From positions 4,626,379 to 4,690,378 of the forward strand of contig OY730170.1 of assembly GCA_963422465.1 (NCBI GenBank): DNA of 64,000 nucleotides, written 5' to 3'. The first letter of the stretch is position 1; every line of letters starts with the position of its first letter. The position numbers were made by a program, and so were the translations under genes. The stretch comes from Lichina pygmaea. Taxonomy: Eukaryota; Ascomycota; Lichinomycetes; Lichinales; Lichinaceae. The notes beneath the pieces are model-generated. The model was not told where the DNA came from, did no database searches, and saw nothing but the letters and a program-made list of their open reading frames with translations. Shown one piece after another: positions 31,729 through 62,617 of the stretch.

Positions 31729-32027
31729 TCGTATCGTGCGTAAGGTGTTATTTCACATGGAGCTCAGACCACATGTAACCACCTATGCTGTATTAATACC
31801 ACCTTTTTTTCTTTCCAAAGGAAGTGTCCGTCGGTCTAACCGCCGTACGACTGACGTAGAGGGATACACACTACTGTGACTGTAATTACCATGTTGTTGC
31901 ATGCAAAGAAAACACTTGCAGGTAGCGGCCAGTACGAATGATACGGCACCCCCCCCCTCTTCTCGCCCAGAGCCCCTGAATCCGGCGTAAGAACTCATGC
32001 AAGACATTGCCACCGCTCATATCGTGA
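31695..32027. other. Convergent 3' region with (CCG)n
   Basis: The 3' ends of RVB2 and LIN1 face each other across 333 bp. A (CCG)n run at 31695-31728 directly follows the RVB2 stop codon. No gene is seen. Confidence 0.6.
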
Positions 32028-33581: not shown

Positions 33582-33957
33582 TGATGTAGCACGACGGGTG
33601 AATTCACTGTGTTTGCCTCGTACAGATGGTCAAGGGAGTAGTCGACCAGCGATGTCTACGGTCAGAGTCGGACCGGTTGAGCTCGGTGGTGTACTGTAAG
33701 CTCGGCTCGCCGTCGAGGTTGTAATTATTACGTAGCTCCAAGGCTACTTCAAGGCTGTCCAAGGACTTTATCACGGCTTATGATAGAGACCAACGTTGAG
33801 CTCTAGTTTGACGAGCTTTCTGGTGTCCTCTGACTTTAATTCCAAGGCAGACTCGGAACTCTCTTCACGGAGTTTCGTGATGCTAGGCCGCAGCCTGTAT
33901 TCCACCCTCCTCACAACACCGCACTCCAAGCTATCAAACATCTCAAATCGTCCCATC
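33582..33957. promoter_or_regulatory. Shared divergent promoter region, LIN1 and UFD1
   Basis: 376 bp between the start codons of head-to-head genes. It must hold both promoters; I see no decisive element. Confidence 0.5.
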
Positions 33958-37304: not shown

Positions 37305-37965
37305 TCAGTCATACTGGTCCACCCAGTCCACGTCGTTGAGCTGACAGTCGTCGTCGTCGTCCTGTTCGTCATGGATACCTTCGTCGTCAAAGTCGGTGAC
37401 TCGGCCCTTGAACGCGTCAGTGATGTCAGCGCCGACCTCGTCCCATTCGTCGTCTGCGCCGTTCCCGTCCATGCCGCTGCCTCCGGTGAGGCCTGGCGTC
37501 ATGGTGGTATTGTCGACAGCAGAGGCCCCCTTGGCGGCGGCCTTCTTGGGTCCCTTCGAAGTGCCACCGGTCTTGCCGACGCGACCGGCATGAACGCCCT
37601 TGGTCGGAGAGCCGGTGGGCGTTGCGGCTTTGGCTCGATCCTTGCGCGGGGTGCCGCCGCTGCCCCGGGCCGGCGCCTCGGGACGCTCGCCGCTCTCGAC
37701 CTCCTTGATCAGCTGAGCCGCATCGGCCTTTATCTTGCGGAAACGCCCTTCGATCGCATCGTAGGTAGCGCCTTGGCCAAAGTACGTGGCGATCTGACGA
37801 TAGTTTTGATTTTGCGGGGCTGCGGCCTGCATGGCAGCCAACAGGCGTTGGAATGACTCCTTAGAGTTCCAATCAATTGTCCTTTTCCCTGTAGAAACAC
37901 AGTCAGACGATGAGGTCGACCGGGGGTGCGCCTCTCAAATGGCAAGACAACAGAGTATTACCCAT
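37305..37965 (-). CDS. Myb/SANT-like array gene 1
   Basis: Predicted 195 residues from a 4-nt first exon (37962-37965, ATGG) and a second exon 37305-37888, joined across GTAATA...CTACAG. The protein begins MGKRTIDWNSKESFQRLLAA; three helices follow the Myb/SANT layout: W-x3-ESFQRLLAAM, YRQIATYFG, and ATYDAIEGRFRKIK. The tail is Lys/Pro/Gly/Thr-rich and then strongly acidic, ending DVDWVDQYD. First member of an eleven-gene array. DNA binding is inferred from the fold-type pattern; I know no studied relative. The start is supported by the Trp that opens helix 1, which would be lost if translation began at the internal ATG. Confidence 0.7.
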
Positions 37966-39946
37966 CTTGAGTCGGGCAGTGGTAAACAGAAAACCGTGCA
38001 GACAGCGAGTCGGCGCCGTGCTCGTCGTAGGTAGCGTATCAACTGTACCTAGTCAAGATGGACGAGCCTAGTGAACAGATCGAGAGTGACGATGTCCGAA
38101 GTGGAGAGGTGTGAGGTTGAAGAGTTATCACGACAAGGTTGCAGGCGCACGCAGTCGTGAAATAGGGCAGCAATATTAAGCAGTAGAGCGACTAAGCGGA
38201 ACGACGACTAATCGGACGATATCATCTTGAGGCTTCGTCGAGTCAGCGGGGCTTTAGGGCAATAAATATACCTCAAAGCCTGCAGGCGTGAAAGCCCACC
38301 AACCATACCGTAGCCTCCACCGAGTGGACCCAGGGTGCTTGCATGTCGACTCGTAACCAGGGCCAGAGGGCCGTCGGAGTGAGTAGTCGATAAGAACCTT
38401 CAGCCACAGTTCAACCCTCTACTTTTGCGTCTGGTATCTGCTGTATGCTGACCAGGTGGCCGCGGCGAGGAGCCAACAATGGAGCCATGCTTCGAAGACG
38501 GCTGATCTCGACGGAGATGGGGGGAGCCAGAGACGTGCCCTCGACCACGGACCAGTATCTTCAATCGCGGGCCGAGCTGGGTGCCTTGTCCATCCGCTAC
38601 CTCCTCGCTGTGAGGAGCCATGGCTTGCTGAGAGACGAGCAGCAGAAGCCGAGAGCGTCGTGGATGATCGGTTCTGACGAGCCTGTTCGTTCCTCTCGCC
38701 GACATTCTCTCTTTCCGAGCTTTCCCGCTATCCGTGGTCGAGTCGTCTGACTGACTGAGCCGGCCCAGACACTTGATCGCATCCGAGCCGTTTCCCTGGC
38801 CATCGTTTGGTCCCTATCACATCTCCTCTTGGCGGCACCTCTGTCACAGCGAGCTTCGTCTCCAGGCTTGTGGACCCGCGAAGGGACGGAGTCGCTGCGT
38901 GGTGGGTCCGTACACTTGGACCATGCCTCACAGACGGGCCACAGCTCCCGATGCTCGTATCCCGGCAATGCGTCCAGGGACGGAAACCATGGCCCCAACC
39001 CATCACCTTTCCCCGGGTTTGCTCCGCGCTTGGCGGCGCCTCCTCGAGCTAGCCACAATCCGGAGTCACGACAAATGTTTGTCGGGAAGCTTGGAGCACC
39101 CTTGTCCGGCGTGTCGGGCCATACGGTTTCCGTCAAGTCCTATGGGACCAGTCCTGCGGACGACCAGCTGATTCCGAACGTTGAGCCGTGTCCCTTGATC
39201 AGCGTGGTGCAGAGTCCGCAAATGGTGGAGCGACGGCCAGGCGCTCGCCGTACGTGGAACAGATGCTGGCTCCAGTCGTAAGCATCTCCAGGTGCAGATG
39301 CTCTATCCTGTTTCTCGTGGTATGATGTCTTTACCTGCAAAGCTCTTGCGTCCATGCCAGAGAGCTTGCAGGGTCATAGTATCCATGATCACCAAAGATT
39401 GAATGTGACCTTTGGCTGCCGACGTCGCACGCAGCAAGTACGATATGATGTCAGAGCTCACCGAACGTCGAACTACGGCCGGCCCGAAAGGCTCCGAGTG
39501 ATGTGCCGCTAATGGTTTTTGTTATTACGCTCCGTGTCCCATGGCTCGGGCTTGTCTAGCGTCAACCTTATTAGCATCGGCGCGGGGTCCTAGGCCGATG
39601 TCACGTGGTATCTCACGTGACCCCTTAGCATCTATATAGATCGCTCTCTTAGCAATGCATCCCCGTCTCTCGACCCCTTCGCGCCCGTGGACCGTTCACC
39701 GATCTACAGATACGGAGACGACACCACATTTACTGTACGGAAGTACGTCTGTGCGTGCCTACGGTCTATCTACGAGGTACTCCAAGTCCGTAGACAGCTT
39801 CGTTACACATACGATAGGCCATTCTATGCGAGCTTGGATTGTCGTCTTCGATTGATAGCTTCAATATAAGTGAAAAAAGACAATCATAGACCAGAAGACG
39901 TCGTGGGTAACGCAAGGTAGTAACCGACGAGCTACCTGAGACGCTC
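37966..39946. other. Intergenic region in the array
   Basis: Nearly 2 kb between array genes 1 and 2. Frames at 38829-39281 (+) and 38597-39136 (-) overlap each other, lack a domain and show no splice pattern. I see no further Myb-like copy. Confidence 0.5.
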
Positions 39947-40880
39947 TCATTCAAAGAACTCGCCGTCACTGTCCAGGCCGTAGCCGTCCACATCCATGGC
40001 CTCGATCGGGTCGCTGCTCGAATCCGGTCCTTGGTCGGACTCGTCAAAAGGATCGTGGAGCTTGGCGTAGGAGACTTTGTTGGCCGCTCCTCGTGGCAGG
40101 CTGCGCCGCTTCTCGACCCGGCCGCTCTCCACTCTTCTCACTGCCGTCTTCGCGGCGGTCTTTGTCCCCTTGCCGACCGCGCTCGGGGCCTTGGCGCGGG
40201 GTTCGGCTCTCCCGGCGCCTCCGCTGCGAGCGCGGGTCACGGCTTTTTGAGCCTTCTTGGGCTTCGTCTTGGCCCTGATCAGGGCGGCGCGTGCAGGCGG
40301 GGTCGGACTCTCAGGGGTGGCAAGCTGGGCCTTCTCGTCCGAGTCTGACCTGGGCTCGGGAGTGATCGCAAGATCCGTGGCATCCGAGGTGTCCGACGGA
40401 GCTGGCGGGGCCTGCTCATCTTCCTCATTTTCGCCCTCCTCAACCTCGACATCCGGTACGCGCGACCTGCCAGTCTTTCTGGGCACGGTCGTTGTGCAGG
40501 CCGACGCGGGTCCATCACCGTAGGGAGATTCTTCGTCGAGAATCTCTACCTTGTCCACCACCGCTTGGCGGTGGGTGACAGCACAGCCAGTGGCTCTGGC
40601 GGCAGCCTTCGTTTCAGGCTCCATCGGGCCTGTACCGGCGGCACGCTCCGCGGTCTCCATGGCCCTGGCTTTTTGCCGAAGCTTGAACATGCGCATCCTG
40701 ATGGCGCTGGAAGTCATGCCTAGCGTCTGATCAGCCAACCGGACGAATTGCTCTCTGGGAAAACCTGAGTATACCCATCTCGTCCGCGACCTTCCGGTGA
40801 TCGACCGAAATGCCATGGACCTTGAGGATGGTGAGAAATAGGCGGATGTCGATATCCGCCGTCCAGACTGGTTTGCCCAT
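39947..40880 (-). CDS. Myb/SANT-like array gene 2
   Basis: Two exons, 40775-40880 and 39947-40719, with a 55-bp intron (GTATAC...CGCTAG), 292 residues. The domain reads MGKPVWTADIDIRLFLTILK, VHGISVDHRKVADEM, then GMTSSAIRMRMFKLRQKA: Trp-led helix 1, a VDHRKVAD helix 2 and an AIRMRMFKL recognition-type helix. The intron is phase 1, four residues before the A-I pair of helix 3, the same point and phase as intron 2 of array gene 4. The long tail has acidic and Lys/Arg/Ala-rich stretches (KTKPKKAQKAV, KGTKTAAKTAVRR), histone H1-like in composition, and ends acidic (MDVDGYGLDSDGEFFE). Nuclear role inferred. Confidence 0.75.
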
Positions 40881-41067
40881 CACGATGAGTGGATAGAGGA
40901 TATGATGTGTGAGCGATGTATCGAACGAGCTCAGACAGTCTCGAGGCAAGCCGCGTAGAGACAAGCGGTGCAGGGATACCCCTCGATCTCGAGGCTTGAG
41001 TGGTAGAAGCGAACGAAAAACTAGACCTGTGTAGATACGAAGCCAGCCACGTCACCTGCAAGTACGA

Positions 41068-41103
<36 letters not shown>

Positions 41104-43248
41104 GGGAAGGAAGAGAAGAAGTGGGGTTGGTGGGAAAAAAGAAGTTTTGAGGAAAGAGGAGACCGAGGAGCAGATTTATACACGCCCATTCAAGAGAGTA
41201 GACAATGTGGGTCGATAGCGTCCATCGCGTCGGGAGGACATCGGTACAACATCAGGGGTGCGCTATCCAACGCCGCATCGACGCGTTGAACGGCCCAGGC
41301 AAGTCTTGTTCCTTGGGCAGAGCAGAGACGACGGCAAGGCAAGTATAACATCTTTCAAGTTCGACTCCGCTTCTAGGGGTTGGAGAAATACGAATACCAT
41401 ATTGTCTTGGACGGTTGTCACCTCGGGCAGACATCCCACATCCCAGAATCTTCCTGGAGGAGAGGAAGAGTAGAGAGATGGTGGTTTTGCGTTAGAGCAC
41501 CAGGTAGTGCCGAGATGACTGAAAGAAGAGAAAGCGGACAGGTCCTCGTCCTACGTCACCAAAACAGTCCATGAGATAGGATTCTAGGAACCTTGAGGGC
41601 GGACGACATCTGTTGACGAGGGAGAGGAGAGAGGGGGCTTGAGCACGGAAGCTTGGTGACATGCACGGGGACATGTCCATCTCGTTGGAAATTCTGCTGC
41701 CCTTGAGCAGTGTTGCAGGTCCATGGCAGGACGTAGACGGTACCCTTGATTGACTTTTCCCCGCCGTATCTCGACCGAGATACCCTCCCATCCGCCCACA
41801 CGGCCCGGCGGGTTTTCGACCCTCCCAAGGTAGCGGGGCCACAGTCCAAGCGCTCGAGCCCGACCAGGCGTGCTCCTCACGGGTTCCGCTGGAGCTAGCA
41901 GCCAAGGGCATCTGCTGCACCCGGACGTCTTCCTCCGATGCGGCACCGGGGCGAGTACATCCCGCAGTCCGCCTATCCTCATCGTACTTTCGAGCCATTG
42001 GCGGCGTGATACATAGCCACCGCGACGTCGTTCATCACTTTCTCTGATATCACGAGAAGCTCGCCAGCCTGGATAGGGAGGAGATGCTGTGACGGGGGGA
42101 CAGCCAAAGGGAAAGGTGTGAGGTTGAAAGAAGGTTCACGCCTTCCCCGCAAGCGAGTGCGGCTTGTCCTGGCTGACGTCCCGGCAGCCCGGGATTAGGC
42201 CCCCGTGGCCCGGTATTAGGGGCTATCGATTAGAGCTATCCTACGGTAGAGCAGAGACTCGGTTCGCGCATGCAATGTACTGCGATGTACTCCTTCGTGA
42301 CCTCGTGCCATCATAGGGCTCGGCATGGAGGGCTGAAAAAAAAAGGGAGGGAGTGGACACATGGAGCGGCAGAGCATTGCCGGGCTAGCTTGGACGCCTC
42401 ACACCTTAGTGATGCCTGGGGCCGAAACGGGAAAGAAAAAAGCAGGCCATGTGCCTTTCCGTCCCCACGCACGTATCGATGGTCCCATACTCGGATGACG
42501 GGCAACAACTCACGAACAGAAGCTCTCAGTGGAATGCTTCTATACGCCGTAGAAAGCACGTCGAGTACGTGTGTGCGTTCCGTATGAGAGGGTATCTCCC
42601 ACGGTACCCTCGTACAGACGTACTTGAGATCTGTCAGGCCAGACATGAAGGAATCAAGACTTTGGATATTGGCTAGTCGTCGACACTTCAGCCGGGGCAA
42701 CATCCCAGGCCAAAGATTGCCGCATCAGAGTGTTTGTGGGAGAAGGCTGACCCGGGAACTGGCGCGGATAGCCGGGACTGTCACACCTTAGGTGACGCTG
42801 GCTAAGCATAGTGTGTCCTGGTCTGCCGTCGTAGCAGACCTCATGTCTCGCCGTAACTCATGCCACCGGCTGCCAGAGGATGTCGTCGTAGAGACGACGG
42901 ACTGTGTGCGGATGCTCCTAGCATGTTCTCTGGGCTTACCTGCGGGATCGTGAGCCGTGCGTAATGTCAACTCACAGAACTTTGCGGCGCCTGCACGCGC
43001 ATCGTGGGTCCGCTGAGTCGTCGCTGAGTCGTCGAGGCTCCCGGCCGAGGGCTTTAACACGCTATGTGAACCCTCGATCTTGCCTGATTATTCTCCTCCT
43101 CCTTCCTCGACAACACGCTTCGTTCCAGCTACCTTGGACTATCCATCTCAAGCACCGTCTGCATCGAAAAGCCTGTCGAACCGTCCACAGTCGATAGAAC
43201 ATTGTACTCTCCTGTCTCGGTTACCGCAAGAAACATTAGCAAGTCAAG
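40881..43248. other. Intergenic region in the array
   Basis: 2.4 kb without a supported gene. Contains (GT)n at 41068-41095. A minus-strand frame at 41492-41998 starts plausibly (MARKYDEDRRTAG) but has no domain. An apparent tRNA-like T-loop string near 43346 lies in the intron of array gene 3. Confidence 0.5.
41068..41095. repeat. (TG)n microsatellite
   Basis: About 14 TG units upstream of array gene 2. Confidence 0.9.
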
Positions 43249-43933
43249 ATGCCGGTTCGCTGGACTCCAAGTTTGGACCAGATGGTAGGTAAACCCCTTT
43301 TCATGCCGACGCGTCCAAGATGCCTGCCATCGACTGGCTCTGACGTTCGAATCCCAACAGCTCCTGCTGAAGGTGCTCGAGACGCATTCGGAGCTTAAGC
43401 TCGACACCAAGAAGGTCGCCGATGCCTGGCCGGCCGAGCTCGAACGCCCAACCCCCCGGGCCATCACCGAGCGCTTGGCGAGGCTGCGCAAGGATGCGGG
43501 CGCGCATCTGACCGTGGCAAAGGGCGGCAAGGGTGACGCCGACAACGCCGTACGCGCGCAGGATCAAATGCCTGCCAGCGTACCTAGCACGCCGAAGAAG
43601 TCACAGCCCAAAGATGAGGAGAGAACGCCCGGTGGGTCTGGCGGCAAGAGGAAGCGACCTGGAGAGGTTAAGAAGACCAAATCCCAAGACGACATGGAAC
43701 GGACCATCAGCGACCGCGAGGTTGCTCAGCTCCAAGCGGAGACCATCCGGTTCATGAAGATGTTCGACGCGAAGGAGAACGGTTTCGACGAGCCCCGCGG
43801 CACCGGCCGCGCTAGCCCCGAGATCAAGGACGAGGTGGATGCTCTCGAGAGCCCGACCAAGAGGCTCCGTATCATCCAGTACCACTTCGACCACGAGGAG
43901 GGCTTCGAGGACGATGATGAAGACGAGAACTAG
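43249..43933 (+). CDS. Myb/SANT-like array gene 3
   Basis: Exons 43249-43284 (12 codons) and 43361-43933, 202 residues. The domain is MPVRWTPSLDQM/LLLKVLET (slash marks the phase-0 intron), HSELKLDTKKVADAW and RPTPRAITERLARLRK. The first exon has the same length and phase as that of array gene 4, both ending just before the LL of helix 1. The tail carries a basic stretch (GGKRKRPGEVKKTKS, a likely nuclear localisation signal), an IKDE match to the SUMO consensus, and an acidic end (EGFEDDDEDEN). Divergent relation to gene 2 and convergent to gene 4. Confidence 0.78.
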
Positions 43934-44253
43934 GCATACTAGGGCATGAGAGGATCACAGTTGCTCGGTCGGAAGGGGCATGTACCGAGAACCAGGGGAC
44001 GCGATCAGTAGCATGATTCATCAGGGCTGACTGCTCATGAATGTCAAGTCGTGGGGTCAAAGAATGGTGCGGGTTTAGCTTCACGCTTTGATTCTCACTT
44101 TCTCTGACTAGGCAAAACCCATTTCCACCCTCGCACCACCTCCTAGCGACGAAGGTTCGCACCTCACCTGTTCCGTAGTCAGCCCACGTAGTCTTGTAGC
44201 GTTGTGATCAGCCTGTCTTGGAAAAGACCGGACTAGGCACCGTTGACCTCACT
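43934..44253. other. Convergent 3' region, array genes 3 and 4
   Basis: 320 bp between the stop codons of two convergent array genes. Nothing else is visible. Confidence 0.6.
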
Positions 44254-44962
44254 TTAATCCTCGTTGCCCGAAGTAGCCTCGACTTGGGCGTTTTGATCCG
44301 AGGCGGCGTCTTGGCTCGTGCCTTCCCCGCCCGCGAGCCCCGAATGCTCGTCGACCGCGTTGGTCGATTCCTCCTTTTTGGCAGCCTTTCCACGCCGCGC
44401 ACGCTTTTGCTTGGGCTTGGGCTCGGTCTGCGTCCCGATAGCGCTCGGACCCTCGGCGTTTCCGTCCGCAGCAGTATTATCGGCCGTCTCGGCGCCCTTC
44501 TTGGCCCGCTTACGCTTCGTCGGAGTCGCGGTCTTGCGACCGCCAGCAGGGTTAGCTTTCCCGTCAAAGTCGGCGTCGTCAGCGTCATCCCCATCCGCGG
44601 CGGCAGTCGCCTTGATTCTGGCGACGCGGTGCATGACGGCTTTGGCAGTGCATTCTGCGTCAAATCAGCTGTTGGTCTGGGAAGCTTCATTCGCTATATT
44701 AGATGGTTCCAGCTTACCCGGGCCCATGCACTGGGCGAGCTGTTCATAGTCAAGCTTCACGTTATGGATCTTGAGTATATGTACCAAGAGCTGGGGAAAA
44801 GAATGAGTAAGCGTCGTTTCCGTGGGGCGTGGCAGATGCAGGTGTAGAGTCCAGTATAGCCCTGGACAGTAACGAATTTTCAAGGAAACCCGCCGCAGGT
44901 GAGAGGGAGACGAGGGGAATACTCACGCGAGCAGTCGCCTCGTCCGTCCACTGCATAGGCAT
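44254..44962 (-). CDS. Myb/SANT-like array gene 4
   Basis: Exons 44927-44962, 44718-44790 and 44254-44654 (introns of 136 and 63 bp), 169 residues. The domain is MPMQWTDEATAR/LLVHILKI, HNVKLDYEQLAQCMGP/E and CTAKAVMHRVARIKA; slashes mark introns. Intron 1 (phase 0, after 12 codons) matches gene 3; intron 2 (phase 1) matches gene 2, so this gene keeps both positions. The tail is Lys/Arg-rich in two blocks (TPTKRKRAKKG and KPKQKRARRGKAAKKE) and ends acidic. It is one of the shortest members with a complete domain. Confidence 0.78.
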
Positions 44963-47900: not shown

Positions 47901-48276
47901 TTGTCTTTCCAGCGCGCTTCTACTCTCACGGCCGACCTCCGTAGCAAACACGCCCAGCTTCGGGCGATGTCGCCGCCACCGAGATGGGCCCCGCCAGGAC
48001 TCACATGGTGTTGGGACTGCCAGATCAGAAAGCATTTAACTCCATGCTCACCTCACCCTGATTAACTTGGCTCAGCACCCTCAAGAACTTGACCCGGAGC
48101 TTCAAAAGGCCTGGCCGCTGTTAAGTCCCTATTCAGAGACAGACCTCGGAGAGATTCCACATTCCAGCACTTGCTTCCACCGCAACGCTCAGATCGAAGT
48201 TCTATTATCCCTGCCGTCGCAGCCTTTGGGCCGCGCTGTCCCGTCCCTGTCTCGCTGGACCTGGTCCCCTTCAGCA
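44963..48276. other. Largest gap in the array
   Basis: 3.3 kb without a supported gene. Short frames exist on both strands (for example 45521-45892 + and 47510-48004 -), but none has a domain, tidy introns or the Myb-like pattern. TACGGAGTAC-type palindromes recur near 46443, 46676 and 46735. Confidence 0.45.
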
Positions 48277-49032
48277 ATGCCTGCCGATCATTCCAAGTTC
48301 CTGTACACCATCGTCAAGCAGCTCGACCTCAAGAGTGTACGTATGCAGCGACGCCACCTCTCACGGCCTCGGCAGGGATATGACGCTCATGTGACTTGTC
48401 TCCTCCAGATTGACTGGTCCGCCGTGGCGGCCCAGCTGAACATCACCAATGGCCACGCCGCCCGCATGCGCTTCTCTCGGTTCAAGCAGGCCATGGAGGG
48501 TGTCGTTCCGGCTCCGCGCAAGCGTGCCGGAACCAGTGGGAGCCGTCCGCGACGAGCCATCAAGTCTGAGAAGGGAGGGGTAGATAAAAAAGGCTTCGGC
48601 ACCAAGGTCAAGGACGAAGATCAGTCCCCAGAGCCGAGCGAGGCGCCGCTGGTGAAACACGAGCCGACAGATCACGTGCACATGGCACCGGCCCCGCCTT
48701 TCCCGATACCAGGGACCGTCCCACCCAACGATGCCGCGGCCGCACTCGAGTCCGTTCTCGATCCCGCGCTCTCGGCCGGCCAAGATTGCGTCATGTCCGC
48801 GATGGCCCCAGCCAGCCCGATGGCGGCTCCGACATCAGCGCCGCCGACGTTCGGTCCGTCGCCGGGGGACTTTGGGCCCTTTGCGGGTACTTACCCACCA
48901 CCGGACGTTGCCTTTGCTCATCACCCCGCCCACCACGGCCACCACGGCCACCACGACCATCACGGCCCCAACCACGATCCTCATCAAGCACCCGGCTCGA
49001 TGGTCAAGGAAGAACCGCGATGGGAGGGTTGA
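48277..49032 (+). CDS. Myb/SANT-like array gene 5
   Basis: Exons 48277-48336 and 48409-49032, 227 residues. The domain is MPADHSKFLYTIVKQLDLKS/, IDWSAVAAQLNITNGHAARM and RFSRFKQAM. The phase-0 intron lies exactly before IDW, shared with genes 6-9. The intron is 72 bp with no in-frame stop, so retention would add 24 residues inside the domain. Helix 1 lacks the leading Trp of genes 1-4, defining a second subtype. The tail has basic runs, three SUMO-consensus motifs (VKDE, VKHE, VKEE) and a His/Gly-rich stretch (HHGHHGHHDHHG) before the end. An open frame upstream to 48067 has no support as coding. Confidence 0.75.
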   Translation: MPADHSKFLYTIVKQLDLKSVRMQRRHLSRPRQGYDAHVTCLLQIDWSAVAAQLNITNGHAARMRFSRFKQAMEGVVPAPRKRAGTSGSRPRRAIKSEKGGVDKKGFGTKVKDEDQSPEPSEAPLVKHEPTDHVHMAPAPPFPIPGTVPPNDAAAALESVLDPALSAGQDCVMSAMAPASPMAAPTSAPPTFGPSPGDFGPFAGTYPPPDVAFAHHPAHHGHHGHHDHHGPNHDPHQAPGSMVKEEPRWEG

Positions 49033-50344: not shown

Positions 50345-50869
50345 ATGTCTGCCAATCCAAACGGCAGCGAGCCAACGGCCAAGGAAGCATATTTCATGAT
50401 GCAAGTTCTGAGGTATCAGGAGGGAAAGCCAAAGGTGGAACTTCACCCGAGCCTCTGCTTAAAAAAGGCCCTTGCCTCTGTTCCCCTTTGGCTATGATTT
50501 TGTCTCGCAGTGACACGTCTGATTCTCTTGTCATCTCTTGCTGACGGTCCTTGCCAGGTCGACTGGAACACAGTCGCTGAAGCCACGGGTCTGAAGAACG
50601 GCTCGACGGCGAGCGCCCGCTATAGGCAGATCAAGAAACGCCTTGGGTGGACGACGGGATCCGCAATCAGTTCTAGCTCGCCCACCAAGTCGACGAAGAC
50701 CGGCGGCTCGCCGCACTCTCGGTGCGGACATAAAAAGGTGTCGACCGAGGAAAATGAGGTAAAGCACGAGCCCGAAGATACCGACGAGAAAGTCGGGATC
50801 AAGGATGAGACGATGGCCGACGGGCAGGAGGACTTGATGTTCGATTCGACGAGCGAGACGGACGAGTAG
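50345..50869 (+). CDS. Myb/SANT-like array gene 6
   Basis: Exons 50345-50434 and 50558-50869, 133 residues, the shortest member. The domain is EAYFMMQVLRYQEGKPK/, VDWNTVAEATGLKNG and STASARYRQIKKRLGW, with the phase-0 intron before VDW (donor GTGGAA is weak, acceptor TTGCCAG is good). The tail has VKHE and IKDE motifs and ends acidic (FDSTSETDE). Confidence 0.75.
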
Positions 50870-52023
50870 AAGAGGCTTCGGCCCGCCGATGCTGATACTG
50901 GATTCGCCTTTCTGATGACCAGAGATCTCGTGGGGTCCTGAGAGCCATGTTCGGGTGCAGAAATGGAAAATGACTGGATTTCGTCGAGGTAGTCGCCCCA
51001 ACTCGGCCGTCTTCGGTGACATCGTAGCAGGTAGAGGGGCAGATTCATCGTGTGCACTCATCTGAAATGCTCCATCCTCACACCGACACTTAGGTCACAA
51101 TGTAATAGTGATCTTGGCAGCCTCTTTTGTACGGATCATGTGTAGATGCCGCAGCATTGTAGTTCCATTGTTCCAGATACCCATCACTCCATCTGGTTGC
51201 TGTCAAATGTGCGGTCGTGATAGCGCGCACCACACTTTCCGAACGAGAAGCGGTCCCCCGCTCACAAAACGACAGTGGTGGTAGTCATACCACTGAGAAA
51301 CTTGAATCCGGCACGTTCCGTCTGAGGTGATCCCCTCACGCATATCAATACCGTTGATCACTACCCGATTCTCTTCTTCTCTTTCTCTTCCTTCCACCAT
51401 CATTAAGTGGGTTTGATCGAGGTACATGTACCAACTTGGCCGTCGTCGGTGACATCGTAGCAGGTAGAGGGGTAGATTCATCGCATGCGGCCATCTGTGG
51501 TATGCCATTCTCACACTGACACTGAGGTCAGCATATGATAGTGATCTTGGTAGCTTCTTCTGTACAGATCATCCATAGATGCTGCAGCATCATAGTTGCA
51601 CCACCCCAGATAATCAGGGCTCCATTTGCGTCCTGTCGAATGTGCAGTCATGATAGCGCATATCACACTTTCCGAACCACGAGCAGCCCCCTGCTCACAA
51701 AATGACGGTGATGGTAGCTGTACCGCCGAGAACCTGAAATCCGCCACGTTCCGTCTGAGGTGACAACCTCACGTAAATAAATACCTTTCATCACTGCCTG
51801 GTTCTCTTCTTCCGTTTCTCTTCCTTCCAACACCGTCAACTCCGAGTCATCCGCAACTCTGATCCACGTATAGTCTCGGCGAATTCATTCTCCACAAACA
51901 TCTTCTCGTCTCATCCAGACCTGAGTCCGTATCAAGAGTACGCCCTTGCTCAGGCCTTCCCCGGCTGAAGACGCGAAGCATCATTCTCTCGACGCCAGTC
52001 AGCCACGACTGACTGTTCCATAG
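50870..52023. other. Intergenic region, mostly a tandem duplication
   Basis: Between array genes 6 and 7; filled largely by the 434-bp direct duplication listed separately. Short frames in it are by-products. The second repeat copy abuts the gene 7 leader. Confidence 0.6.
50993..51835 (+). repeat. 434-bp direct tandem duplication
   Basis: The block CGGTGACATCGTAGCAGGTA occurs at 51014 and 51448, a shift of 434 bp. The match continues through GATAGCGC, ACACTTTCCGAAC, CTCACAAAA and CCACGTTCCGTCTGAGGTGA-like strings (CACGTTCCGTCTGAGGTGA in both) to a CT-rich end. Copies differ by scattered substitutions and small gaps. Limits are approximate. Confidence 0.88.
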
Positions 52024-52715
52024 ATGGCCGACGCTGCCGATGATGGCTCCGCCACGTCCACTAACATCGGGGGCGTCACGCCGAATGACGCGAAATTCTT
52101 GGTCGAATGCCTCAAAAACTCCAGGGGCCCTGTCAGCGTAAGTTGCTTCCGTCATTTGGGATCGTCTTCTTTCCACTTCTTGGTGAAGCACCTTGCTTTC
52201 GTCTGTTGGCGCTGGCCAGACTCACGTGCCATCATGATGTCACGTGGCTCTCTCAGCCTCGCCCTGTCATCGGGAGAAGCTCAATTTGTTGGTAGGTGGA
52301 CGTGGAGAAGGTGGCCGGGGCATTGGGCCTCACCAACCCGAAGTCGGTCTCGAATCGCCTCGGCCAAATCAAGAAGAAATACGGGATGGAGTTCACTACC
52401 GCTGCGGCTGCTGGCGTGAAGACCGGCACCGACGTTGCTGGATCTCCAGTGGGAGCCGGTAGAGTCCGCAAGCCGGCCACCCCGAAGACGCCCAGGACGC
52501 CAAAGACAGGTCGAGTCGCCAAAAAAGAGGAGGGCACCCCGAGTCGCAAGGGGAAGGGCAAGACCGCAAAGCCCGAAGAAAAAGTCGACGAAGATAATAA
52601 CGTGGAGGATGACGAGAAGGACGGTATGATGAAGGCCCAAGATCATAAGGGGGAGACTACAGAGAGTGACGAGGACGGCCCGGCCACGGAGCCGAGCGAG
52701 GCCGTCGTCTCCTAG
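52024..52715 (+). CDS. Myb/SANT-like array gene 7
   Basis: Exons 52024-52137 and 52296-52715 (158-bp intron, GTAAGT...GGTAG), 177 residues. The domain is TPNDAKFLVECLKNSRGPVS/, VDVEKVAGALGLTNPKSVSN and RLGQIKKKYGM, with the phase-0 intron before VDV. The tail is Lys/Pro/Thr-rich with AT-hook-like TPRTPKTGRVAKKEE and SRKGKGKTAK stretches, then acidic. The promoter overlaps the right copy of the 434-bp duplication. Confidence 0.78.
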
Positions 52716-53559
52716 TTCGGGGGCTGCGAATGTCACCTGGTAGAAGGACCGTCACATGATTGAATCGAAGGATCATTCTTGCTCATCGTTGTTGTCCCAT
52801 TCTCGTGATTTGTCATGCCGTAACCCTCATTCGTCTGGCCGTCCTGGCCATGATCGTGAAAAGTGGGCGACATCACGTAAGCCCTGACCATTCACCTGCT
52901 ACAAAGCTCTCGAGTCCCCAGCATTTCATCCCTCTTGTTCTCATCCACCCACAATCCGCCAAGGGGCTTCTTTCACTCAAGCCTTCAAACATTCCCACAC
53001 TTCTCGTGCTCGTCCCTTCTTTGCTCGCCTTGCAGCTCGAGCTCAAGGTCATCTTCCCTCTTCTTGTGCGCTTTCCTTTCTCGTTGACCATCGTCCATCT
53101 CTGCACCCTGCTCCGATCGAGACGCCCCCGAGGCAACGCCAACTTCCCCTTCATCCACCTTATAAGAATCTCAGAGTTTGTCTCGGTCTTTGGCTGCCCT
53201 CCCGTATTGCACCGTCATCTCATCTTCCACTGTCATCTCGTCTTCCGCCATCACATCTTCGACGATCCTGACTTCCGTCTCGTAGCTTCGGCCACGCCTT
53301 CTCTGCTCAATATAAATCTCAGATAGGATACCCCTTTGCAAATTTTCACCTGTAAGCCACCCCCCACCCCCACCCACATCAACTCACCTCATCCACTCCT
53401 TCAACGAAGACGTCCGTATCACGTCAGTTGTCAATGCCTCTTCGATCGCTGCCTGGCACCAACCCGTACGACTCCCATCCTGGAACGCCGTCGGACCGTC
53501 GGTAAAGATTGACACACTGCTCTTGCAGGCCAACAAGAACCTTAACCGAAAACGTAACG
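52716..53559. other. Intergenic region, array genes 7 and 8
   Basis: 844 bp; pyrimidine-rich from about 52880 to 53290, as in fungal promoters. A frame at 52760-53326 is low-complexity and unsupported. Confidence 0.55.
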
Positions 53560-54311
53560 ATGTCGTCGTCCAAGAGGGAAAAGCTCTCGGGTAGCGTGAA
53601 CCTTACCCCCAAGGAAAGAAAGATTATCATCGCATGCATGAATGCTACCACCGGCGACATTGGCAAAGTGGTAAGTCGCGTCGACGACGGTCCTGTCTTG
53701 AGTTTGCCGTCCACCCTCTCGGGCATGTAGATCTCCGTCGCCTTTCGTGTCTGCACCCGCCCAATCAGATAAGGCGCGCGCATCTCAGTCCAATAGATCT
53801 GGACTAGACGTTGACGATATGCTGAATCTGGGCATAGATCAACTTCGAGCAAGTCGCCAAGGACTGCGAATATAAGAACGCGGAAAATGCCAGAACGATG
53901 TTCATGCGCTTGAAGCGCACCAAATTTGCGGAAACGATTGATGACACTGAAATCGATGCCAACGTCGCCCAGCCCGTAGCCAAAGCCGCCCCAAAGAGAG
54001 CCCGCAAGCGCAAGACGGATGGCGAAGGCCCGAAACCAGCGGCGAAGCGCGGGAAAAAGACGAAGAGCACCGACCAGGTTGTCGACGACGGCGACTCGAA
54101 CGCCGGGCAGGAGGCCACTTCGGTGGACGAGAACGCCAACTTTGAGGTCAAAGCCGATGGCACCGACAACGGCAATGGCACGTCCGAGGAGCTTACCGAT
54201 GCTCTGGAACAGGACTCCGGACATGATTCGGATGCCACCATTGACGAGTCCGCGATGCAGCTGGACAGCAACACTGAAGGCACGAACGGAGAAGGTCGTC
54301 AGACCGAGTAG
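53560..54311 (+). CDS. Myb/SANT-like array gene 8
   Basis: Exons 53560-53670 and 53838-54311 (167-bp intron, GTAAGT...GCATAG), 194 residues. The domain is LTPKERKIIIACMNATTGDI-GKV/, INFEQVAKDCEYKNAENART and MFMRLKRTKF, with the phase-0 intron before INF. The tail has a basic stretch (APKRARKRKTDGEGPKPAAK, RGKKTKS) that is a strong nuclear localisation candidate, followed by a long acidic region. Confidence 0.78.
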
Positions 54312-54966
54312 GAGCACAATCAAGGGCCTGGCCTTCGGCATTCTGGGAAGGGACCGCTGAACTTGACTGCGCTGGACAAGCGGAGAGATCACTGAATTCA
54401 AGGATTCTTCGTGCGAAGGACTCAGCTGCTTCTCTCATTCCTCTTCCATCCATCATTGCAGCGCCGGATGCTTTTAACCCATGCCCGTACCTCCGTAGAC
54501 CGTTGACTGGTTCCGCCGTATCTATACCGGTTGCTCTCTTGAGCATACTGCACCTCTAGATCCACCGCGAACGCTCCGTATAGGTCCCGCACGCACCCTG
54601 GCATCAATTAGCTTGTACGCCATGCATCTGAGCTGCAGCCCGAAACAGCCCCTTTGATGCGCACGCCAGGAGACACTTCGCGGAGAGACAATCAATCGGC
54701 CGGTTTGCTCAGGTAGGCGCGCACTGTCCTCTCCGCCGACTAAGCGTAACGCCAGCAGAGACTTTCTCTTTGTTCCGTGTCATCCGGCAACCGAACCCAC
54801 GACATTTCGTCACCCAGATTCTCTTTGCCCGCGGTCGTCGCGATTACTAGGTCAAGACACCAGTTGTCAACACCAATCGATCGGCTGTCAGGTCTCAAGC
54901 CCTGTGCAGACCAAGTCAAGAACCGTCAGACGGGCAGAGCATCAAACCATTGATCCGACCTTGAAC
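54312..54966. other. Intergenic region, array genes 8 and 9
   Basis: 655 bp with no gene visible; presumed 3' UTR of gene 8 and promoter of gene 9. Confidence 0.55.
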
Positions 54967-55564
54967 ATGCCTCCGGCCACTATTGACGAACAGTTCAAGT
55001 TCCTCATCAGCTGCATTCGCCATGCAAACAACGGAAAGGTATAGAGGTCGTGTAGCCAATCTTGTGCCAGCCAGGTCAGAGCGGCTGACCTCATGCAGGT
55101 AGACTTCAGCGCCGTCGCCGAGGAATGCGGCATCATCAGCAAAGGCGCCGCGTGAGTCAAGCTGCCCAAACAGCCCTGCCAGTATAGATATGACGCATAA
55201 GCTGACAGCTATTTTATCTTGGCGTCGAGCCAGAGCCAAGCGATATGAGCGAATGATGCGAGCTCACGGCATCTCGTCTCCTGCACCGAGTGGTCGCCCA
55301 CCGCCAACGAGCTCACCCTCCAAGCGTGACGATGAAAGCCCCGTAAAGAAAAGAAAGGTCGACAAGGGCAAAGACGCAGTCTTTACAGATGCCACCGATG
55401 ATGACGACGGCATGGAAAACATCAAGCCAGAAGGGACCAACAAGGACAGCGCCCTTCTTGCGAGCGCCGGCCACTCGAGCTCTGCGGCTCGGAAGAGAGC
55501 CGCCACCGCCGGCCTGGATGGAGAGGATGGCCCTAGTTCAGACCCCTTCTGCATCGGGGACTAG
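54967..55564 (+). CDS. Myb/SANT-like array gene 9
   Basis: Exons 54967-55038, 55099-55151 and 55234-55564, 151 residues. The domain is TIDEQFKFLISCIRHANNGK/, VDFSAVAEECGIISKGAA/ and AKRYERMMRAHG. Intron 1 (phase 0 before VDF) matches genes 5-8; intron 2 (82 bp, phase 2) is private to this gene and sits where helix 3 begins. The tail has SPVKKRKVDKGK, close to the classical SV40-type nuclear signal, and an IKPE motif. Confidence 0.78.
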
Positions 55565-56779
55565 CTGCATGTGATGTCTCCATCCAACGGATAGGGCACG
55601 GGTTCCTTGGAATGCCAGCGTCTCGGCAGTGCGACTCAGGAGACACGGTCTGGCCTGCAGGATCTGGGCAATAGTCCATGCGTGGGCGTTCCAGCGGTTC
55701 TTGTGTCCAGTATAGCGGGGATGGGTGACGGATAGCAGTTTAGCACCCAGTCGAAGACAGCACAGATGAAATGATATCTCGGTCCATGTCCAGAGGTGCT
55801 TCGAGACGCAGAGAGCCAACAGCCTGACAAATGCATTAAGCCGTCACACTACGGTACCGTACATACGTAGCTTATTGGAGTTGGCTCGTCAGAGATCGTC
55901 AACATGGCGAGCTCCGCCGTGGAGAGAAGAGGCATTGGAGACGGGCTCTTGGACAGGCGAGTGGGGCGCTTCTTAACAATAGCCGATTGGTGCTGGATTG
56001 GCTCTCTTGAGCAGGGCTGATTACGTGATGCATCATTCGCAGGGCTCAGACGTCGGCGTAGTCGGCTATCTCGGCTATCTCGGCTTCGCCGGCTCATATT
56101 AGCCGTGCGTGCCGCGCCAGCGACCTCTACCAGACCATACCCCTGCACAGTAGCACATTGATATCCAAATCGACTACATACGTACGTTTGTAGAAAGGGC
56201 CAAGCACAAGGTGCTTAGAACAGTCTTGGATCTGGATCTGGATCTTGGGATTTCAAGCCCTTGCAACAAGATGGCAGTGCTATGGGAGGACCCACAGAGC
56301 GATAAATTCACCTTGATCCACCCTTCGCGGTTCTTTCCTTTCTCGGGTGGAGCTACTCTCGTACAGTTGACAACGACCCTGAGATCTTCAACCTCTCTGA
56401 GGTTGCTTCCTGAGCTATCGGATATCATTTTCTACAGCTTCAGTCTCTGCCGCTACGTTCCCATAGCAACAACTTTCAGACCATCAACCTCACGGGGGCT
56501 GCCTCCTGAGCTATTTGAAATCATTCTCTACAGCTTCAGTTTCTGCGACCACGTCCCCAAAGCTAGTAACAGCCTTCAGATCGTCATCCTCGCTGGGGCT
56601 GCTTCCTGAGCTATTCGATCTCATCTCCTCCGGCTTCGGACTCTCATCTGCGGTGCCCAGTACGCCTGGTTATTGCTTGGTGTACGCACACAACATCCTG
56701 GTTCTCATCTCATCCTCGTCAAAAACAATCCTCATTATCGAATACCGCCAGGTTGACCTTTGCGCAACAGCTCTTGGCT
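55565..56779. other. Intergenic region, array genes 9 and 10
   Basis: 1.2 kb. Its right half holds three imperfect direct repeats (56392-56680). The frame at 56211-56609 is a product of these repeats. The rest shows nothing. Confidence 0.5.
56392..56680 (+). repeat. Three imperfect direct repeats, 86-100 bp
   Basis: Units begin AGATCTTCAACCTC (56392), AGACCATCAACCTC (56478) and AGATCGTCATCCTC (56578), and share GCT[T/G]CCTCCTGAGCTAT-like and CTACAGCTTCAGT cores. They lie 100-390 bp before the array gene 10 start codon. Confidence 0.8.
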
Positions 56780-57704
56780 ATGCCTCGCCGCCGTGCTATG
56801 AGCTGGGACGGTAAGCCCTGCTCTTTCCCATTCCTTCCGCACGTTTCCTTCGTCCGAAGTGATATCCCTTCACTTCTAGATCCCTCTTGGTATATGAGTC
56901 TTTATCATATACCTATCCTGTTAACTTGCTTCACTATCGATGCTTCATGCTTCTGATTGCCTGTGGTATACGCATGATTCTTTCCTATCGTTCTGTCTCT
57001 TTGTTTCAGTTCCTTGCATGCGCGGAGGCCAACAGTGTCTGTTTCTCTAGGCGATGCCGACCAGCACTTATTGCTGGCTATCCTAGCCACCCACCATGTG
57101 AAGCTGGATTATGTCGCCGTCGCGAAGCGGCTTGGACCGCAGTGTACGGGGCGCGCCGTGGAGGAACGGCTCAAGAAACTCAAGAGGATGGCCAGAGAAT
57201 GCGGGTTCGATCCCTCAGCCACGGACGCTGATCAGGACTCGCCGCCGGGCTCGTCGGTCAAGCCGGCCGCCGCGCCACCTCCAACGAAGGCGGAGGCCGC
57301 TGGCGCCAAGCCCACCGCGAAGCTCGCCCCCTTGGGGACCAAGGCACGTCAGGAACGCAAGGCACGCAAGGGTACCAGCAAGACTCGGACTCCTTCCCAC
57401 GCTCAGACGGATGAGGATAGCTCTAGCAGTGCCGAGGTCCCCCCAATCGAATTATTCAAAAAGGAGGAGAGCGCGGAGGCCGGGGCCAGCAACAGCCCGG
57501 TCAACGCCGTGAACGCTCATGGCACGAAGCGCTCGTTCAAGGACTATGGGGACGATTCGGAAGACGCTGAGGTAGGCCAGCACCACGGACGGCTGGGCAC
57601 TGAGTTTCTTGCAATGCTTACGCATTCATATCACATAGGGCGCTGGAGCTAGCTCCGAACAGGATGATGAGCCCACGACCGATACCGAAATGGCCGTCGA
57701 ATAG
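56780..57704 (+). CDS. Myb/SANT-like array gene 10
   Basis: Exons 56780-56810, 57051-57571 and 57639-57704, 205 residues. The domain is MPRRRAMSWD/G, DADQHLLLAILATHHVKLDY, VAVAKRLGPQCTGRAVEERL and KKLKRM: Trp-led helix 1, helix 2 VAVAKRLG, helix 3 RAVEERLKKLK, close to gene 4. Intron 1 is phase 1, one residue after the Trp, as in gene 11. A third exon of 22 codons (GAGASSEQDDEPTTDTEMAV) is needed; reading through instead ends in unlike sequence. The tail contains FKKE and a basic block (TKARQERKARKGTSKTRT). Confidence 0.78.
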
Positions 57705-60700
57705 GCAGCCGGGCTTGTCCTGCACGGGATGGCAAGAGAGGGACGTACAGGAAATGGGACAAGTTGGGCAGCGATCGAAGCGACGGCCGAGCTAGATTCC
57801 GGAAATTCTCTTTCGACATGATGACTGTCTATGAATCGGAACGGCTCGCTTTGGCTCTCCTCACGGTGGGTCAGAGCATGAGACAGGCAACCGTCGTCGC
57901 GGAGAGCGTTACCCTTTCTTCGGCTCATTTCCCTTTCGACCTTCGCCGTTCTGCACGGATTTTCGCAGGCGGGCTCTCTACAAGTCGACTGTCATATCGG
58001 GCGTTTTCAAGCACGGAATGCTGAGACGGGTTTTCGAGGAGAAGCGCTTCGTCCAGCATGGTGCCTGTGTTCAGGGAACGCAACCGAGATCATATCTCCG
58101 GGGCCCGTGGAGCATTGAAGCGTAACTCGTCCGTAGAAGTCCCGTATAATCCCCCGCGGTACACGCCCCAAGCACGTTGAAGCATGCAATCCACAAAAGC
58201 AAGAGATACGTACGACAGTGTGCCTTGCCCCACCTTAGTAACCCTCGCCGCTCCTACGGAAGTAGGTCCACCGCAACACATCAGTTCGGCGTCACCAGAG
58301 CTTCTTTCTCGTCCTCTACAATCGACAAGTGCAAGACGGAAGAAACACAAACCCAAGTCAGACCGTTCGAGGGTGTGCCTCTTTGAGCCGATGATTCTGT
58401 ACAGCAAAGACTCGGAGACCACCAGGTAGTGGTGGTAAGCGTGCCTAGGCGGGTCGTTACTGCCTGTGCTAAACGATACCACGAACACATTGCGAGACAC
58501 ATACGAGGAGATGGAAGGAGATTGCCTGTCCGATGGATGTGATCGGGCTGGCGTGCATGTTCGGTATGGTAAGTGTGTACGGACTCGGCTCTGTGAACAA
58601 AATACCCTCGTACTTACAGCCATTCGATCCGATCGGTCTCAAGAGTCGGATGACGTATCCAAAGATACTTTAGTCGACCCCTATTGCGGTGGCTGACTGA
58701 CAAAGCTGACCTTGGGGCTAGCCTTGCGATATGGGCTGTAGCATCGGACGAGGGATTGGTATGCCGCAGGATAGCCGTGGCTGGAATAATCTGGTCAAGT
58801 CAGGGCATGCGTACGGTATGTATGTGTTCGTGAGTCTTGATTGTTTGATCGTGGGAGAGACTCTCCGTATATATTGACTTGTGTTCGATGGTCAATCTGT
58901 CCTGTGGGACGAGTACCGTATCGGTAATGTGGTGTTGGTATTTGCTATTCCTACTGGACTGTTAATCTACGTACTCTTCAGCAGTGACGGTACAAATTTG
59001 ACGAAAGCGAGTGAGTCGTCGTCTCCACCTCCTCCCCATGCGTCTTGACAAGGCACAACAAACGCGATAAAGTCGTTCAACGGGACAAGGAGTCATGAAT
59101 AGAAAAGGGAAGATGAATCACGTGACAAGTAGTGAGGGTGAGAGGATGAACAAGTCGGTAGTGGTAGGTCCACCTCGAGTTTCTCTCACGACTGTGGTAA
59201 GAGAGTTTGGGATACTTCCCTTGGAGTGCTGAAAAGACATGAAGCGACTGCTATAGGAATTAAAGAAGGTTCCATTGTCGACTGGTAGTCGTTATGAGGT
59301 TTGGTATGCTTGCCAGCTTGTATGCTTGCAGCCACATCATACCCCACCAATTACCCGCACAAGTAGTATTGAATCCCTTGATAATGAGCGTCGACAGATA
59401 ACCCCCACACCCAGGCTGAGACGAGAGACGGATACAATCACGCCGGATTATATATCCGTTGCAAATTTCCAAGAATGAGTATAGATGAAAAGCCTCCCCC
59501 CCCCTTCAATAGCGATCTCGACCTGCGTTAGCTACAATCGGTCAACACATTGTCGATTGAGATAGGCATGCCGTGAGAGTAGGACATGCGAGCGTTCGCC
59601 GAAGGAATCTCGAGATGCGTAGGTGATGGATGTCGAGGGCACGACAATGCTCAGCCACTTCTTTGACTGTAAAAAAGGGGGTCTCAGCTTCTGCTGCGGT
59701 CGGGAAACAAGATAGCGAAAGAGGATGATGCTCTTTCGATCACTTGGGGAAAGAAAGGGACATGGAAAGCGGTATCAACCTTACCCATCTAGGGTACAGG
59801 TGGGCTGCGATATAGTATGCGTTACCACAACACGGCTCCGTAAAAAAACTTGCTGGCTTGATAGCCAGCAAAGAGAAATCAGGCACCACAGTACCGCCAT
59901 TCAGAAATGGCTACTGATCAAGGACAGCAGCGACGGTAGCATCACGACACCTTCATCGTGATTCCATAGAGCAGCCACAGAACAGATGCATAGGTTGCTG
60001 GTGACGCTGTTCTGTCCGGACAGGAGATAAATCAGGACCACGTGCCAACGCATAGCCGGACCCCTTGAGGCCGGGCTTGGTCCCTGCTATACAGACGCCG
60101 GGTAACGGGACGTCTTCGAGTGGGCATTGTAGGACTGTTTCCGCAGGTTAAAGGTGCAGACCGCTCGGCGTGAAGATTGCGATAGACGCACCCAGAGACG
60201 CCTGCTGCACGGCCGCGGAATGCACTGTGGTGCTTGTGTTGTGTTTATTTTCCGTGGCAAACGTGCTGTCATCTTCTCGATGAGGGTTAATGCGCGGTTG
60301 CCGCACGGCGACGATGCGATCTGCAGGCAACGCCCTAATGCGCTTACCTCGTCGACGATGACGCCGGGTATGGACGAGAGACTCACGTGTCGACATCTAG
60401 AGTATATAACCCTCTCAGTCTTCTGCTCACTTCGTTTCTTCACCCTCCTTCTCCACCTCACCCCCAACACCCACTCCCTTCCTTGCTGAACCACTCCATT
60501 TGCTCCACACCCGATCGAATCAAGTGCTCCTTTGCTGCTCAGGCTTCAACAGGCTTCAACGAGGTAAGATAGCTCTTTGCTTCCTTCTCCGTCCAGCACC
60601 CCCGTCCTCCTGGCATGGAGCCGACAACCAGCTTCGGACTCGGTGGAGCCCAGTCTCTTCGGATGAGACCTTTGGGCCCTCCTGTCCCAAGTGGCGTCGC

Positions 60701-60897
60701 CCTGTTCGAGACCAGCCTCGACCTTGCCGACGAGCCGTCGAGGTCGTCGGCCCTCCATACCTGACCACCGCCGTCCTTACCCTCCCTATTGTCGTCGACC
60801 CGCAGCCTTCAAGGATCTTCATTGCTGCTGACCAAGCCTCGCAGACAGGAGAGCTTGCGAACGTCGGAGCAGTTTATCATTCTTCAGCCAAGACACC
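57705..60897. other. Intergenic region, array genes 10 and 11
   Basis: 3.2 kb without a supported gene. The frame at 58090-58623 (-) has no domain. The last 500 bp are the gene 11 promoter and CT-rich leader. Confidence 0.5.
60403..60409 (+). promoter_or_regulatory. TATA-like box before array gene 11
   Basis: TATATAA followed within 80 bp by a strongly CT-rich stretch, the usual layout of a fungal core promoter and start zone. The start codon is 489 bp downstream. Confidence 0.4.
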
Positions 60898-62617
60898 ATG
60901 CCACCCAAAGCCCCCGCTCCGCGACCCCTCCAACGCCCCGCGACGCGCACGCTCATGCGCTGGACAGGTAAGCAAAAAGCCGTCTCGTAGATCATAGCCT
61001 AGCCCCTGTTCTGTCGCTCTTCATGAGAGCAAGTCTTCACGGCACCGCTTTCATGCAGGCCTCTTTCCGGGCCGGCTTCATGACCGGCTTGGAGTGGTGC
61101 TAGGGTCGGACCGTCGGCTAGTCAACCCTTGTCGTCTGTCCTGCTTCGTTCGTTCATCATCGTTCTTCCTATCTTTCGATCCTAGTTGCATCAATCTGCC
61201 ACGTGACTCGTGGCCCGAACGGACTCGACAACGCTTTTCTGTCTTTCAGAACTTATGATGCTTCACAAGTCCTTCGAGACAACGTTGTGAAGACTGGCTG
61301 ACGGTTGTATCAACAGTTGACCACGACCAAAAGTTGCTCCTGTGCATCCAGCAAGTGTGCCATGAGAAAGGAATTAAACTTCCGTGGGACGAGATTGCCC
61401 AAATGCTGGACCCCAAGGCCACGGGGGGCGCCACAATCCAGCACCTTGCCAAGCTTCGAGTCAAGTTGCAGGAGCAAGGCAAGAGCGTGCCGCCCCCGCT
61501 TCGGCGGCTGACGGCAGCGAGCCAGCACACCGTCGACAACGAGGCCGAGAGCCCTCTCAGATGGGTGCCTGCCGGAACGGCCCCTTCTGGAAGCCAAGAA
61601 AGACGCTGGCCGCAGAGCCAGAAGCGTACTTATCAAGAGACTGACGAGGACGACGAGGACGACGAGGACGACGACGACTATAGCCCGCACCCGGCAAAAC
61701 GATCTGCAGTGGGCGTGAAGCGTCGTACGTATGAATCCACAGTCGGAGAGATTCAGGGTAAGAGCCCCATGCGCGGAATCAGAGGGGAGACCGAAAAGAG
61801 CGGTGCACCGTGGTCCAGCTTCTCTGACAAGATCAAAGAGCCAGAGTCGTCGAACAGGAATGCCAAAGGCAAGGGACGCGCCACGGCGTCCATTGGGCGA
61901 GGCAGGTCCGAAATGGACTTCATGCAGCCGGCCCCCAAAGACCCTGTGGAGCACGCCAAGAAAGCAAAGCTCCCTGTCGTCCTGAAGGTTAGTCCCAGCT
62001 TCAGGTCGTCTAGGTTTCCGCACGGCCTGTCGCAGTGGGCTCCGGGTGTTTCTGGCCCGGCCAATTATTCGGTGGATGACGACCCCGAGGAAAGCGGTCC
62101 AGAAGCTTTCCCAGACATGGATGAAGATATGAACGAAGAAGAGTATCATCCGGTGCAAAAAAACTCCAGCATGAACGTCGAGGTCGACGAGGCCGAGGAC
62201 GCGGGTGAGGACCACACCGGTTTCGCTGCCGGTGGCGCCGAGGAGCAACACGAACAAGATGCCCAAGAGGCCGGTCTGCCGGCTTTCGGGAACATCCCCC
62301 AGATGCCAGACTTTGCCCCTATCAACACCGAATTTTCGGGGGTCCAGATGGCCATGCTAGAGAATTTCCAGGCTCCTAACAGCATGCAGACGTCCATGAC
62401 GACTATGCCTGCCAGTTCGAGTGAGCTGGCTCTGATCACTCCACGGGGTTCGTCGCTGCCTGCTCTCGAGCCAGCTCCGGACATCAGCGAGTTCGAAAAT
62501 GCTTATATCAACTGGGACGAGGGGCCACACGACGACACCTTCGCGACGGGGCCTCTTGGATGGGGCGACGATGCCGGATTCCTAGGCGGACCTGGATTTG
62601 GCGACCGGTTCGAATGA
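60898..62617 (+). CDS. Myb/SANT-like array gene 11
   Basis: Exons 60898-60967 and 61317-62617 (349-bp intron, GTAAGC...CAACAG), 456 residues, the longest member. The domain is TRTLMRWT/V, DHDQKLLLCIQQVCHEKGIK, LPWDEIAQMLDPKATGGATI and QHLAKLRVKL. Intron position and phase match gene 10. The tail is much longer than in the others: an acidic block (DEDDEDDEDDDDY), basic patches, then a Met/Phe/Asp-rich end (ISEFENAYINWDEG, DDAGFLGGPGFGDRFE) resembling an acidic activation region. Role as a transcription factor is inference. Confidence 0.78.

Follow-up and report, generated by a model that had tools for sequence, protein, structure and literature searches.

Eleven linked Myb/SANT-like genes in Lichina pygmaea: a possible ancient cluster of putative nuclear regulators

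How do eleven small genes come to lie in a row, each with the same putative domain at the start of its protein? The question is raised by positions 37305-62617 of a 64,000-nucleotide stretch of Lichina pygmaea DNA (contig OY730170.1; the whole stretch is called the window here), where a preliminary description had noted the genes (g1 to g11) and proposed a regulatory gene nursery, that is, a dense local expansion. Our preferred answer, about which our confidence is evenly divided, is that these genes form an ancient set of small nuclear regulators that bind DNA or chromatin and have been retained together, several of them probably controlled by SUMO. That the domains are homologous, and that the members that can be traced are old, we regard as very likely.

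The first matter is whether one domain is shared at all. Eleven spliced genes with GT-AG junctions were modelled (Table 1), three on the reverse strand and eight on the forward strand, and the N-terminal ~55 residues of all eleven proteins align. Profiles built with one gene left out at a time recovered 10 of the 11, with E values from 0.0045 to 7.1e-14; g1 was weak (E 0.081, 11.2 bits), and a direct hhalign comparison of g1 with the profile of the Trp-led group (g1-g4, g10 and g11) gave 91.6% probability and a score of 33.9, whereas none of 60 shuffles exceeded 18.5. The decoys for these tests were 2106 six-frame sequences. The best of them, taken to be a SANT/Myb gene on contig C5, scored 14.5-21.3 bits and beat g1 and g8 when these were the genes left out, and the second-best never exceeded 8.4 bits. 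When profiles of the Trp-led group and of g5-g9 were compared, the result was 95.4% with E 1.7e-8, and a profile of g9 homologues alone scored g8, g6, g5 and g7 at only 9.5-12.1 bits (E 0.027-0.18). Chance resemblance is ruled out by the leave-one-out tests, decoys and shuffles, with g1 and g8 the weakest cases, and the description of a shared N-terminal domain in eleven linked genes is borne out. Four of the models also match independent annotation across introns before or within the domain, all in Lichina confinis: P0117 for g6, P0088 for g7, P0001 for g9 and P0069 for g10. The P0117 reading supports the unusual GTGGAA donor of g6 as well.

The preliminary description had divided the genes into 1-4, 10 and 11, with a Trp-led first helix, and 5-9, and this split corresponds to two clades, separated by a 100/100 branch in a tree of 48 rows and 60 columns, where g8, g1, g2 and g11 sit on long branches. 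The same tree gives a g5 clade of 13 rows at 99/100 and a g3 clade of six rows, five of them Eurotiomycete proteins, at 100/100; for g4 and for g7 there are two rows. Intron positions follow neighbourhood. All five of g5-g9 have a phase-0 intron directly before [VI][DN][WFV], and therefore the motif noted earlier ahead of helix 2 is the start of exon 2; g3 and g4 have in common a phase-0 intron after codon 12, and in g10 and g11 a phase-1 intron interrupts the second codon downstream of the Trp. Among 74 g5-type proteins (the window species' own copy included), 17 have additional residues at the joint before [VI][DN][WFV], as an unspliced intron would leave (six residues in P0137), eight start immediately upstream of that joint, 47 lack an insert and two fall in no class. 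Since neighbours have intron positions in common, tandem duplication made these blocks. Despite the shared introns, no DNA similarity between the eleven genes was found at E 1e-6, where only non-coding repeats appear, so the duplications are old.

These data bear directly on the nursery, a recent tandem expansion confined to this lineage, which we now consider improbable. It would account for the intron-sharing blocks and for the non-coding repeats in the g6-g7 gap (a 425-base tandem duplication, 78% identical) and the g9-g10 gap (short, diverged, with a unit of ~100 bases). However, the genes have no DNA similarity among themselves, g3 and g5 group with proteins of other classes in the well-supported clades just named, and in Lichina confinis one neighbourhood of locus tags contains the g6, g7, g9 and g10 types. 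A recent origin is accordingly not supported for g3 and g5 (from the tree), for g9 (whose domain is near-invariant across 64 homologues) or for g10 (whose relatives occur in Thelocarpon). What stands of the nursery proposal is that tandem duplication made the blocks; g1, g2, g4, g8 and g11 have no traced relatives in other classes.

How far, then, does the cluster extend beyond Lichina? A search with g9 returned 68 homologues and one with g10 five, and a mixed profile found 89 proteins, namely 74 g5-type, ten g3-type, three g6/g7-type and the window's own g3 and g4. Nineteen named species had at least two member types, and in 14 of these the locus tags lie 1-8 apart on equal-sized contigs, if tag numbers are assumed to reflect gene order and contigs of equal size to be one contig. 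The tags are: Lichina confinis, g10 5215, g9 5216, g7 5218, g6 5219; Thelocarpon impressellum, g10 1264, g9 1265, g5 1269; Peltula sp., g9 756, g5 752; Phylliscum demangeonii, g9 6298, g5 6295; Geoglossum umbratile, g9 9202, g5 9210; G. simile, g9 17, g5 25; Pseudocyphellaria aurata, g9 901, g5 902; Dirinaria sp., g9 3242, g5 3243; Lecanoromycetidae sp., g9 5265, g5 5264; Emmonsiellopsis sp., g9 6364, g5 6362; Polytolypa hystricis, g9 4717, g5 4715; Nannizzia gypsea, g9 3826, g5 3828; Emydomyces testavorans, g9 1822, g5 1824; and Piccolia ochrophora, g5 3336, g6 3334. The 14 species span Lichinomycetes, Geoglossomycetes, Lecanoromycetes, Eurotiomycetes and two unplaced genera, and the lineages of Thelocarpon, Lichina, Phylliscum, Pseudocyphellaria, Emydomyces, Piccolia, Geoglossum, Dirinaria, Polytolypa and Peltula were checked. 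In Thelocarpon three tags separate g9 from g5, as many as g8, g7 and g6 would take up, a match in count only. Against linkage, Sclerophora, Candelina and Pleopsidium (3 of the 19) hold their member types on different contigs, and the two g5-type genes of Letharia columbiana lie on separate contigs. Xylona heveae has both types on equal-sized contigs with unordered tags, and the Paecilomyces variotii matches come from two strains and are hence not comparable. Linkage of member types in other fungal classes is, in our judgement, highly probable.

Linkage need not mean function. Tandem paralogues begin adjacent, and the same old cluster may persist simply because its members have not yet been separated; the g5-g9 gap, which varies from 1 to 8 tags, is in keeping with this. 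Yet linkage recurs in several classes, despite the general view that gene order in these fungi is shuffled within chromosomes. We judge this explanation rather unlikely, and put forward a functional reason for the linkage tentatively, at somewhat under even confidence. The Hox-type clusters of animals offer an analogy, and an analogy only: there too, old paralogous transcription factors have long been kept adjacent, but the domain is another one, and the array is on mixed strands and has no known collinear expression. No publication on the cluster was found in the open-licence papers searched.

What kind of domain is this? The nearest named family is PF22980 (Myb_DNA-bind_8; 'Myb-like DNA-binding domain-containing protein' in UniRef), whose members likewise are small proteins with a single domain near the N-terminus and a disordered tail, and whose Pfam entry is silent on clustering and SUMO sites. 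Its gathering cut-off of 27 bits is passed by g5 (70.7), g6 (38.1), g7 (34.0), g8 (28.6) and g9 (85.6); g2 falls just below at 25.0, and g1, g3, g4, g10 and g11 have no match. By profile comparison, the Trp-led genes are a sister group, and they are not PF22980 members by Pfam's rule. The classical Myb/SANT families have the same three-helix arrangement, and the array domains are related to them by profile. They differ in that the array proteins have one divergent domain, with none of the eleven listed for PF00249 or PF13921 at E <= 10, and in that classical matches are scattered over the genome (15 for PF00249, in 13 places on six contigs), unlike the array members. In this genome PF22980 has seven matches with E <= 10, six of them within the array; the seventh, on contig C5, lies under the cut-off at 25.2 bits and is matched by classical Myb families too, and no match over the cut-off was seen elsewhere. 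Genome searches with single pieces of g10, g5, g3, g7, g11 and g1 returned array members only, with the proviso that they are insensitive and scored one or two candidates each. Twelve 10-kb control stretches gave nothing above 6.9 bits with a profile built from the eleven genes themselves, and no additional member was found in the remainder of the window or in the flanking DNA (20 kb upstream, 40 kb downstream).

Structure models of orthologues have three confident helices for g9 (pLDDT, the predicted local distance difference test, 93-96) and g10 (86-91). The g9-type bundle matches solved Myb/SANT structures, among them CoREST, Ada2, c-Myb, Reb1 and PHR domains, and at E <= 0.001 neither orthologue model had a Foldseek match. 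Profile matches in the PDB include the SANT domains of CASP8AP2, DNAJC2 and TADA2, and searches with profiles A5 and A6 found no Myb/SANT chain.

Several of these structural relatives raise a rival reading, in which the domains are SANT-type readers of proteins or histone tails rather than DNA binders. A single domain offers little basis for specific DNA binding, and SANT domains figure in both the profile and the structural matches, as just listed. On the other side, c-Myb, Reb1 and PHR domains match too, and each of the eleven domains carries a net positive charge, as do the last 24 residues of each; this charge is the sole support for a transcription-factor role. We consider the reader possible, though we lean away from it; a nuclear function is likely.

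The tails had been described as unrelated and fast-changing. They are indeed unrelated in sequence, and between the window and Lichina confinis they have drifted well beyond their domains (domain and tail identity 91 and 55% for g9, 91 and 57% for g10, 89 and 58% for g6, 86 and 63% for g7). They are not without common features, however. The SUMO consensus psiKxE occurs 181 times in 47 g5-type tails against 10.6 in shuffles (present in 47/47), ~155 times in 64 g9-type tails against 10 (63/64) and 22 times in 10 g3-type tails against 1.5 (10/10), roughly a 15-fold excess; these counts are not independent, as orthologues share ancestry, and the relevant point is retention within tails that change fast. 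The two best columns hold the motif in 45 and 42 of the 47 g5-type and in 58 and 50 of the 64 g9-type tails, while the reversed motif, psiRxE and psiKxD were at or below chance in both types. Four g10-type tails have five sites against 0.9 expected. In the window itself, g5 has four sites, g6 two, and g3, g9 and g10 one each, nine in all against 1.5 in shuffles; six of the eleven tails have none. A following proline marks the synergy-control form of the motif; it is commoner than background in the g5 type (119/181 against 46%) and is not enriched in the g9 type (38/156 against 25%). The basic import signal K[KR]x[KR] is found in 63 of 64 g9-type tails and in six of the eleven in the window. 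From these motifs, SUMO control of at least the g5 and g9 types seems fairly probable.

If the array is an ancient, co-retained regulator set, each protein would have two parts: a single three-helix domain of SANT/Myb-like type, placed at the N-terminus or close to it, with a net charge of +1 to +6 and probable contact with DNA or nucleosomes, and an acidic, disordered tail, in several cases with an import-like basic motif and putative SUMO acceptor sites. The proteins would bind chromatin through the domain, sumoylation of the tails may switch them or gather them into shared complexes, and the genes would remain linked through regulation as one neighbourhood. Three points weigh against this. 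Five genes lack traced relatives in other classes, as said above; searches failed to turn up several of the member types in many species, so that the set is not indispensable, which fits linkage without function; and the tree does not recover g9, g10 or g6 as single clades, with g3 sitting inside the g10 rows. Because it leaves g9 and g10 unresolved in this way, our confidence in the full explanation is slightly lowered. A bolder version is that two sister Myb/SANT subfamilies were clustered before several leotiomyceta classes split and have been kept together since, their members forming a single chromatin system that depends on SUMO. This would be the fungal equivalent of a conserved cluster of paralogues, and the Lichina-like lineage studied here would have eleven of them; we think this doubtful.

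It is worth stating what is gained. Proteins labelled just 'hypothetical' or 'Myb-like' in many ascomycetes are seen to be old, often linked and equipped with retained SUMO-consensus sites, and scattered unknowns become one testable system. They provide a case of putative regulator paralogues that remain neighbours across fungal classes, and a Trp-led sister group is outlined beyond the reach of the Pfam model.

The earlier remark that no other recognisable gene lies between the members agrees with ten long, hand-picked open reading frames from the gaps, none of which had a Pfam match (genes without a known family may remain), and with the failure to detect any transfer RNA or Rfam gene anywhere in the window. 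The same frames bear on a last alternative, in which the domain derives from a Myb/SANT protein carried by a transposon, later recruited and duplicated. Other Myb/SANT-like domains are known to have arisen in this way, and a frame outside the array, probably a fragment of a Ty3-like element, has sub-threshold matches to a retrotransposon gag (22.3 bits, cut-off 24.1) and a chromodomain (19.5, cut-off 25.1); it is of another kind, and no transposase or repeat match in Pfam was seen for the ten gap frames. We regard this origin as very improbable.

Table 1. Genes of the array and other features of the window
Feature	Positions	Strand	Exons, length	Group or content	Evidence
g1	37305..37965	-	2 exons, 195 aa	Trp-led group	spliced model
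g2	39947..40880	-	2 exons, 292 aa	Trp-led group	spliced model, leave-one-out 4.4e-9
g3	43249..43933	+	2 exons, 202 aa	Trp-led group	spliced model, ten g3-type homologues
g4	44254..44962	-	3 exons, 169 aa	Trp-led group	spliced model, leave-one-out 9.4e-13
g5	48277..49032	+	2 exons, 227 aa	PF22980 type	
g6	50345..50869	+	2 exons, 133 aa	PF22980 type	same exon join in Lichina confinis P0117
g7	52024..52715	+	2 exons, 177 aa	PF22980 type	Lichina confinis P0088 counterpart
g8	53560..54311	+	2 exons, 194 aa	PF22980 type	leave-one-out 0.0045
g9	54967..55564	+	3 exons, 151 aa	PF22980 type	68 homologues
g10	56780..57704	+	3 exons, 205 aa	Trp-led group	five homologues including P0070, same species
g11	60898..62617	+	2 exons, 456 aa	Trp-led group	spliced model, leave-one-out 1e-4
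Repeat, g6-g7 gap	50975-51399 and 51408-51832			non-coding tandem duplication	
Repeat, g9-g10 gap	56371-56644			tandem repeat	
Element-like frame	27197-28609			gag and chromodomain matches	both sub-threshold
SANT frame	6880-11493		1537 aa	classical Myb/SANT domain	PF00249, 50.3 bits
Adjoining frame	11494-14208		904 aa	glutamine and histidine runs	
Neighbouring frames	30421-35444			TIP49 (RuvB-like), GYF-domain, UFD1	

Outside the array, the window also holds a long frame with a classical Myb/SANT domain, and the frame that adjoins it is very rich in runs of glutamine and histidine. The TIP49, GYF-domain and UFD1 frames are ordinary neighbours.
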